The translations under genes and the position numbers were made by a program. Positions 22,525 to 59,419 of a stretch of 64,000 nt of DNA are shown piece after piece; within the stretch, counting starts at the first letter, position 1, and every line of letters begins with the position of its first letter. The stretch spans positions 1 through 64,000 of the forward strand of contig CALULH010000005.1 of the NCBI GenBank assembly GCA_944321435.1, in the 5' to 3' direction. The stretch is from an uncultured Coriobacteriaceae bacterium (GTDB lineage Bacteria > Actinomycetota > Coriobacteriia > Coriobacteriales > Coriobacteriaceae). The notes below the pieces were generated by a model. The model worked only from the letters and a program-made list of their open reading frames with translations. It was not told where the DNA came from and did not search any database.

Positions 22525-24449
<1,925 letters not shown>

Positions 24450-24539
24450 GGGCGAGAAACGCGTTTATACGACCGGGTTGGGCGAATAGCGCATTCATAC
24501 GACAATGACGGGCAAGAAACACGGGGATACGAGCTCGCG
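24450..24539 (+). repeat. 30-bp phased repeat, plus-oriented arm (3 units)
   Basis: Three contiguous 30-bp units start at 24450, 24480 and 24510. Each opens GGGCGAGAA (or GGGCGAATA, GGGCAAGAA) and has ATACGA at positions 18-23: GGGCGAGAAACGCGTTTATA, GGGCGAATAGCGCATTCATA, GGGCAAGAAACACGGGGATA. There are no spacers between units, so it is not a CRISPR array. Confidence 0.8.
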
Positions 24540-24630
24540 TTTACGTTAGCAGGATATTTTTCACTTGCACAAACGTTTTATCAAGCTGTGCAACCACATC
24601 CATATGCGTTAAGTGCAGCTTCGCCCGAAA

Positions 24631-24720
24631 GCTATGCTCGTACGAATGCCTTTCTCGCCCACGCGGCGCGTATAAACACCGTTTTCGCCCACGCGCTTCG
24701 TATCAAAGCGCTTCTCGCCC
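24631..24720 (-). repeat. 30-bp phased repeat, minus-oriented arm (3 units)
   Basis: Three contiguous 30-bp units read on the minus strand from 24720, 24690 and 24660: GGGCGAGAAGCGCTTTGATA, GGGCGAAAACGGTGTTTATA, GGGCGAGAAAGGCATTCGTA. A fourth, shifted unit begins GGGCGAAGCTGCACTT near 24626. The arm faces the plus-oriented arm at 24450-24539 across 91 bp. Confidence 0.8.
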
Positions 24721-24791: not shown

Positions 24792-25402
24792 GGCTATGAT
24801 CGGGATGAGGCAGGACGTAACGATCATCACCGCGGCGCCCTCGATAAGTTGGTTTACCTGATCCAACAGCTCGTCGGTAATGCTTGAAATACGACCAGCT
24901 TGGCACTTAGACGACCAAGAACCGAGGCCATTGAAGAACGCCCGAACAGACAAAGGGAGAGCGCGAGACACACAAGAGCGACCGGAATTAAGCCGCCGAA
25001 GGCAACAAGGCCAAAGATGGTAAGCAGGTACTTCTCAAGATAGATGACGGCAAGAACAATCATACAATTGGTGCTGAGATCCATGAGTTTCTCAGCGATC
25101 GGCGCACCCGCATCGTCCGGAATCAGAGAAATTGAAGCCGATGCAGCAGTTGAAGCCGCAACAAGCCCGAGTACGTTTGCCTTTTTCTCGTCGAGGGTTT
25201 GGATGTAAGGCGCGTACGTTTCAGGAGTAGAGAAGTAACTCCGCAACGGAAAAAACGAAGCGAGCGCAAAGGCTACGAGCAACACAATCGAAAAAAGACG
25301 GGCTGTTTGAAATGCCCGAATGGCCCTTGTGCCGTTTTCTCCATCATAATCTCCTATAACAGTTGCAAAATCACCTGTTTTTTTCACACGAATCTCCCGC
25401 AT
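24792..25402 (-). pseudogene. Disrupted multi-span membrane protein
   Basis: The frame from ATG 25402 (GGGAGG upstream) reads MREIRVKKTGDFATVIGDYD, then hydrophobic spans near 40-60, 105-130 and 135-155, and ends early at 24854. A second frame carries on the protein sense: ISSITDELLDQVNQLIEGAA followed by a final hydrophobic helix ending at about 24792. The switch lies near 24880-24895. A frameshift, probably with loss of a central periplasmic region, is the simplest explanation. Past 24792 the second frame only reads through the repeat arm. The family is not named here. Confidence 0.65.
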
Positions 25403-25456
25403 AAAGAACCTCCCCGCCCGTCTTTGCCGCACGGCAAAACATCTCTACGCTTTTTG

Positions 25457-59300: not shown

Positions 59301-59419
59301 GTCTTGGTGCCTTTCAGACAGTTGGGCGAGAACCTCGCTTAAACGATCGGATCCATACTACACCGTCTTTTCAGCCGAGCCAACGTGCCGCCCGTTTCCA
59401 CAAAGAAAAGTGAAGGCAG

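Follow-up and report, generated by a model that had tools for sequence, protein, structure and literature searches.

A repeat array is located upstream of the CTP synthase gene pyrG in the analyzed window (the whole stretch of 64,000 nucleotides), and we interpret it, with a probability of roughly 0.6, as one non-autonomous copy within a dispersed system of two components, a Vsr-like nuclease gene and scattered cognate arrays. The first component would be a ~360-aa protein with a C-terminal nuclease domain of the Vsr/EDxHD type, encoded by a gene that is flanked by arrays, and the second would be the further arrays scattered between genes. The pairing of the protein with these sites we infer from their linkage and from the joint presence of the gene and the arrays.

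The pyrG array is composed of two opposed arms, each formed by three contiguous 30-bp units. The left arm (24450..24539, plus strand) has units starting at 24450, 24480, and 24510 (matrix scores of 37.8, 33.6, and 28.7 bits), and the right arm (24631..24720, minus strand) contains units at 24691-24720, 24661-24690, and 24631-24660 (34.8, 30.9, and 33.7 bits); the arms are separated by 91 bp (24540-24630). The six units, their coordinates and strands, and the 91-bp gap had been reported in a sequence-only reading of this DNA and were matched exactly on re-examination. In a scan of the window with a matrix built from these six units, they score between 28.7 and 37.8 bits and the runner-up position 17.2, and an isolated weak unit-like match without an array is found at 59324..59353 (plus strand). 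The inner unit of the right arm takes part in a degenerate 38-bp near-palindrome around TCGTACGA (24623..24660), in which it overlaps a weak opposite unit by 8 bp. The core between the conserved blocks has a length of 105 bp (24533..24637). The pyrG gene (22525..24195, minus strand) lies 255 bp from the array, and on the other side a neighboring ORF of 192 aa (24854..25432, minus strand) has its 3' end toward the array. The orthologous array of a congener is likewise located upstream of pyrG. The repeats had no match in Rfam, viral contigs, phages, or plasmids. The earlier judgment that they are not CRISPR is upheld, as the units are contiguous and degenerate, the arms are opposed, and the neighbors examined include no cas gene.

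Further arrays of the same kind were identified in the genome to which the window belongs, that of a gut bacterium (G000; 2.30 Mb, 26 contigs), and in the congener (G002), the assemblies being draft and MAG and G002 being sampled around pattern matches only. Across 115 units, the conserved block extends over ~23 bp (GGGCGARAANCGCRYTCATACGA), followed by about six free bases and a T at position 30; the conserved unit start and the ATACGA block that had been described are real, but they belong to a conserved part longer than was claimed. A genome-wide search of G000 with a two-unit pattern yielded 86 matches at three mismatches (vs 7 for the reversed control) and 69 at two mismatches (vs 0). The arrays mapped in this way number 18 in G000 and 19 in the sampled part of G002, all of them intergenic. 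The lack of additional copies had been named in advance as a refutation of the repeat family; the 18 intergenic loci with opposed arms in G000 dispose of it. All 36 complete arrays of the two genomes are convergent, with the left arm on the plus and the right arm on the minus strand, and each arm holds between 2 and 13 units; in 26 of the 36, one inner unit forms half of a 38-bp palindrome. The inner edge of the arrays is the conserved one, the outer units decaying gradually and varying in number, and at the single empty site that was examined closely neither a clean target-site duplication nor a sharp outer boundary was seen. Among 60 relatives, a pattern search found exact units in G000 and G002 only.

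The G000 arrays adjoin genes of unrelated function, including pyrG, purF/purM, hypF/hypC, dnaK, secA, and a SpoU methylase gene. A common regulon was rejected, as 20 neighbors proved to be functionally unrelated by Pfam, and closeness to parS/ori was not supported, the arrays not being centered on the parS cluster (G000 C7:61 kb). Arrays are kept at several orthologous loci (pyrG, purF-purM, hypF-hypC, and the tsaD region), the positions being shared only partly. At about eight G000 loci (e.g., L010, L011, L012, L014, and L021) the arrays have a common core, ACATACCCC.ATGCGT...GATAAGCACATAATGCGTGC, and this type looks as if it had spread recently within G000. An isolated strong single unit (33 bits) without an array is located between two genes at G000 C3:139021; as a pointer to a regulator gene it was rejected, no such gene being indicated. 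The purF-purM gap of two other genomes (L072 in G007 and L078 in G010) contains a different repeat, with inverted GGACGCGTTCC/GGGTCA-like words, at the place of the G000/G002 array, and in L154 (G090 C15:32.4 kb) tandem 30-bp GTCGAAAACCATCCAGCTAGTCGAAGCTAA copies precede a small ORF, and an opposed arm was not seen there. The ABC transporter genes of G000 (C3:59.2-61.8 kb) and those of G002 (C7, right of 91994) are ~99% identical, compared with ~80% for neighboring genes, and were thus probably transferred recently.

The start-to-start distance between the inner units of the two arms is quantized, with values of 27, 37, 47, 78, 101, 112, 121, 131, 141, 152, and 174 bp across four species. In G000 and G002 it amounts to 78, 120-122, 129-133, 141-144, 151-152, or 174-175 bp, and for the 36 arrays of these genomes the best period between 5 and 40 bp is 10.50 bp (R = 0.80, Rayleigh ~1e-10). 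The pitch of B-DNA is 10.5 bp. Ten arrays from the two remaining species (G001 and G003), which have different unit sequences and took no part in defining the phase, agree in phase with the prediction made from G000/G002 (V = 0.87, p ~5e-5), and a scan of all 46 arrays over periods of 4-40 bp again peaks at 10.50 bp. When each of the 21 lengths enters only a single time, R is 0.78, a value that 0 of 3000 random sets match at any period. Several orthologous pairs of G000 and G002 arrays retain a similar length with diverged cores (132/130, 174/175, and the pyrG array itself, with 121 bp in the window and 122 bp in G002 despite a different core sequence), and others differ by approximately whole turns (133/122, 152/122, and 152/121). 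Relative to its flanking genes, the hypF-hypC array of G000 (L016, C10:83.7 kb) has the opposite orientation to that of G002 (L031, C2:51.3 kb) and nonetheless keeps its inner distance of 174/175; the switch could be explained by, among other things, an inversion between the arms. The sequence-only reading had suggested a protein-binding array in which the 30-bp period places the conserved blocks on one side of the helix. A phased array that resembles a protein-binding site is supported, but neighboring units within an arm do not lie exactly on one face, since 30 bp corresponds to 2.86 turns of B-DNA; the strong phasing is that between the two arms, the inner distance of which steps by 10.5 bp.

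In G001 and G003, which belong to the same genus, the layout and the helical phase are kept and the unit sequences have drifted. A lag scan that presupposed no motif revealed convergent arrays of 30-bp period in G001, their box 2 being altered to CGATCCTA, and a pattern with box 1 alone fixed detected arrays genome-wide in G001 and at one place in G003. The inner distances are 27, 37, 37, 37, 47, 101, and 132 bp in G001, and 112, 48, and 133 bp in G003, the latter values being corrected by 2 to allow for a frame shift of one base. Some of the G001 arms, being just 27-47 bp apart, are almost without a core, which shows that some arrays can do without a long one.

Two of the G000 arrays lie 2 kb apart around a single ORF (C3:54.8-55.9 kb, outside the window), and a gene of ~360 codons is located between two arrays in all four species. 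The site of this gene is characterized by SRAP/response-regulator genes in G000 and G002 and by rpsI-nagB in G001 and G003; its presence with flanking arrays at two different chromosomal places indicates that gene and arrays were moved or kept as a module. Full-length orthologs (E <= 1e-75) occur in only 4 of the 60 genomes, the next best match reaching 1e-32 over the C-terminal half, and these four genomes are the four that have arrays. The three other orthologs share 73, 46, and 41% identity with the G000 protein; the G003 gene is intact, its TGA being the terminal stop. In an alignment of 22 family members, D271, E282, Y283, H289, D298, and R301 are invariant in the C-terminal domain, and the predicted acidic and histidine catalytic residues of the Vsr/EDxHD superfamily (D271, E282, H289, and D298) are thereby conserved. 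Pfam matches in these members are limited to MTES_1575 (PF18741; restriction endonuclease, Vsr fold; 13/22), DUF559 (8/22), and DUF2726, with no match to a Y1/HUH transposase; no AbiEi match was obtained in Pfam or NCBIfam. The closest solved structures, both weak matches, are 3hrl (endonuclease-like) and 3r3p (mobile intron protein).

In a sample of the phylum, full-length members were found only in Coriobacteriales, mostly matches to the C-terminal domain being found elsewhere, and several Coriobacteriales genomes have 7-10 family matches each. An unbiased scan of gene-oriented loci detected inverted multi-copy repeats beside 9-10 of 26 distant members and at 2 of the 27 loci used as controls (p = 0.02 and 0.009); the repeat periods are 31, 38, 41, 50, and 51 bp, and several of the repeats occur on both sides of the gene. 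The G000 paralog at C3:166.3 kb had no adjoining repeats in a simple scan. Two of the paralog-linked motifs, independent in sequence and from other families of Coriobacteriales, were searched through their whole genomes. In G038, GATCYGGGTTTTCGAGAGG builds more convergent 31-bp arrays, with an inner distance of 110 in the complete ones of common layout (the longer L211 being an exception), and in G048, GTGTACACGATGCG builds dispersed convergent pairs 94-95 bp apart. Such same-plan layouts with unrelated sequences at related genes point to a type of dispersed repeat system that is as yet undescribed, and we found no earlier description of one in the open-access literature.

Of 69 cores, 27 have a CGCAGGT (AAAMCGCAGGTMA-type) or CCWGGTA-like motif no more than 8 bp from the exact midpoint, compared with a mean of 7.8 for rotated cores and with none of 2000 rotations reaching 27; the motif was spotted by eye before testing, and the rotation test overstates independence, since cores within one family are related. 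The motif is common to several cognate families with unrelated arms. Most of the G000/G002 cores have no CGCAGGT-type center. That of the window array also has none and contains instead, near its midpoint, a GATAAAACG motif (24574..24582, minus strand) of a second central class, which is also present in some G001 and G003 arrays; its G002 ortholog carries the CGCAGGT-type center as ACAGGTAAA. CCWGG is the context in which Vsr acts, so that, given the Vsr-like domain of the protein, the midpoint is a candidate for the place at which it acts. The core as a promoter or a fixed gene was rejected, no single core being conserved. An unbiased motif search of the cores returned a different, clade-specific motif, CTTCTCG. 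Further inverted repeats surround the midpoint in the cores of L197-L202 (G048; CTTCTCG..CGAGAAG) and of L205-L209 (G038; CTCGGCAT..ATGCCGAG), and a sequence upstream of nagB at L148 and L160, CCTTACCTGCGGAAATAATGG, is similar to the midpoint motif of the arrays but has no arms.

Under the two-component reading, the protein or its multimer would bind the asymmetric 23-bp unit, the units being set head to tail and pointing inward, and the two arms would be brought together across the short core. Synapsis of this type would keep the inter-arm distance in helical register and leave the core sequence free to drift. Paralogs have their own arm sequences and often a common midpoint motif, which suggests that the arms may provide specificity and the midpoint may be where the nuclease domain acts, with the conserved domain possibly cleaving there. 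The protein might also drive the spread and turnover of arrays, as has been proposed for RAYT transposases on REPs. On the other side, only about one-third of the distant paralog loci have multi-copy inverted repeats in the unbiased scan, and the decaying outer units are unlike ordinary transposon ends, both of which count against the preferred reading. The empty site with neither a clean duplication nor a sharp boundary, the cores that lack a CGCAGGT-type center (the window array included), and the almost coreless G001 arrays also weigh against it. More tentatively, and at somewhat less than even odds, the arrays may represent a new class of mobile, self-propagating system in Coriobacteriales, in which each paralog would recognize its own arrays, synapse their arms, cut a shared CGCAGGT/CCWGGTA-type midpoint, and spread and homogenize the arrays, with site and protein co-evolving species by species.

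The strongest alternative, which we consider unlikely, is that the arrays are operator or titration sites of an autoregulated, antitoxin- or repressor-like DNA-binding protein, those flanking the gene being its operators and the dispersed ones buffering its level or controlling neighboring genes by loops. The position of the gene between arrays in all four species would fit, as would the helical phasing, which is typical of looping regulators, and the uneven distribution of the arrays, which are concentrated in one portion of the genome (C3 has 8 of the 18 G000 arrays). However, the dispersed arrays adjoin unrelated housekeeping genes, and some of them (L010, L011, and the second array of L009) lie between convergent gene ends, where no promoter is expected; the central motif and the invariant nuclease residues would be superfluous for an operator. 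About half as probable is a role in chromosome architecture, with the arrays serving as anchors for a nucleoid protein by which the chromosome would be bridged or looped, as at matS/MatP or BIME/gyrase sites. Such a role is favored by ~18 dispersed intergenic sites, the long persistence of several loci, and a geometry suitable for looping; nevertheless, the unit sequences vary between species of one genus and are missing from the rest of the family, the positions are only partly shared and not centered on the parS cluster, and the product of the linked gene is nuclease-like and has many paralogs. Slightly less probable still is a genome-defense device, i.e., a nuclease that recognizes non-self DNA and is sequestered or licensed by the arrays. 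The predicted Vsr-like nuclease fold and the 7-10 full-length paralogs per genome are in line with it, but PADLOC gave only marginal matches (two models, one member each, E ~0.01-0.03), no viral contig, phage, or plasmid with an array was found, and the genes stand alone among housekeeping genes.

A true REP/RAYT system with a HUH transposase, or an ordinary MITE, is very improbable. In REP/RAYT systems, the gene lies between repeats, inverted pairs are dispersed, and protein and repeat diverge together (PMC2817692); the REP-rayt-REP layout and the co-evolving sequences convey the same idea as the arrays. The likeness includes the gene flanked on both sides in the four orthologs and the dispersal of the repeats, seen also for the G038 and G048 paralogs. 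The array-linked protein, however, is Vsr/DUF559-like, without a Y1/HUH transposase match, and the arrays consist of 23-bp units in 30-31 bp tandem arms rather than of hairpins with a tetranucleotide head, five of the six window units folding not clearly better than shuffled sequences; a helically phased inter-arm distance and a central motif distinguish them further. The array system works like REP/RAYT without being a member, as the transposase and hairpin repeats were tested and are absent. BIMEs, MITEs, and the multi-site ends of the Tn7/Mu type likewise have inverted arms of repeated protein sites, whereas the arrays vary in unit number, appear to lack fixed outer ends, showed no clean target-site duplication at the one empty site compared, and conserve the inner edge rather than the outer. 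A decayed 10-residue repeat protein, raised in the sequence-only reading, or mere chance has a negligible probability and is rejected: 30 bp do equal ten codons and ORFs cross the arms, but the arms lie on opposite strands at 36 loci, the inter-arm distances are quantized, and the arrays are intergenic and conserved across species.

The closest biochemical parallel to the two-component reading is provided by the EDxHD homing endonucleases, of which I-Bth0305I dimerizes on a target almost 60 bp long (PMC3943268). The array-linked protein has a weak fold relationship to this group (3r3p), and in both a nuclease domain would be coupled to recognition of a long site; unlike I-Bth0305I, the array-linked gene is outside an intron and among many copies of its putative target, and the putative targets, as arrays of several units, are scattered over the chromosome. 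The C-terminal domain places the protein with the DUF559/MTES_1575 orphan nuclease-like proteins of Actinomycetota, from which the full-length coriobacterial members differ in having an N-terminal half of their own. No description of repeats linked to DUF559/MTES_1575 proteins was found in the open-access literature.

A large family of orphan nuclease-like proteins is thus linked to what appear to be its own DNA sites, which makes its function directly testable. The system would be a second solution, unrelated to REP/RAYT, to the problem of spreading repeats in compact bacterial genomes. The quantized inter-arm distances allow the helical pitch of DNA within a protein-DNA complex to be read from the genome itself, and the unit sequences, which drift between species, provide natural protein/site pairs for studying how specificity changes.
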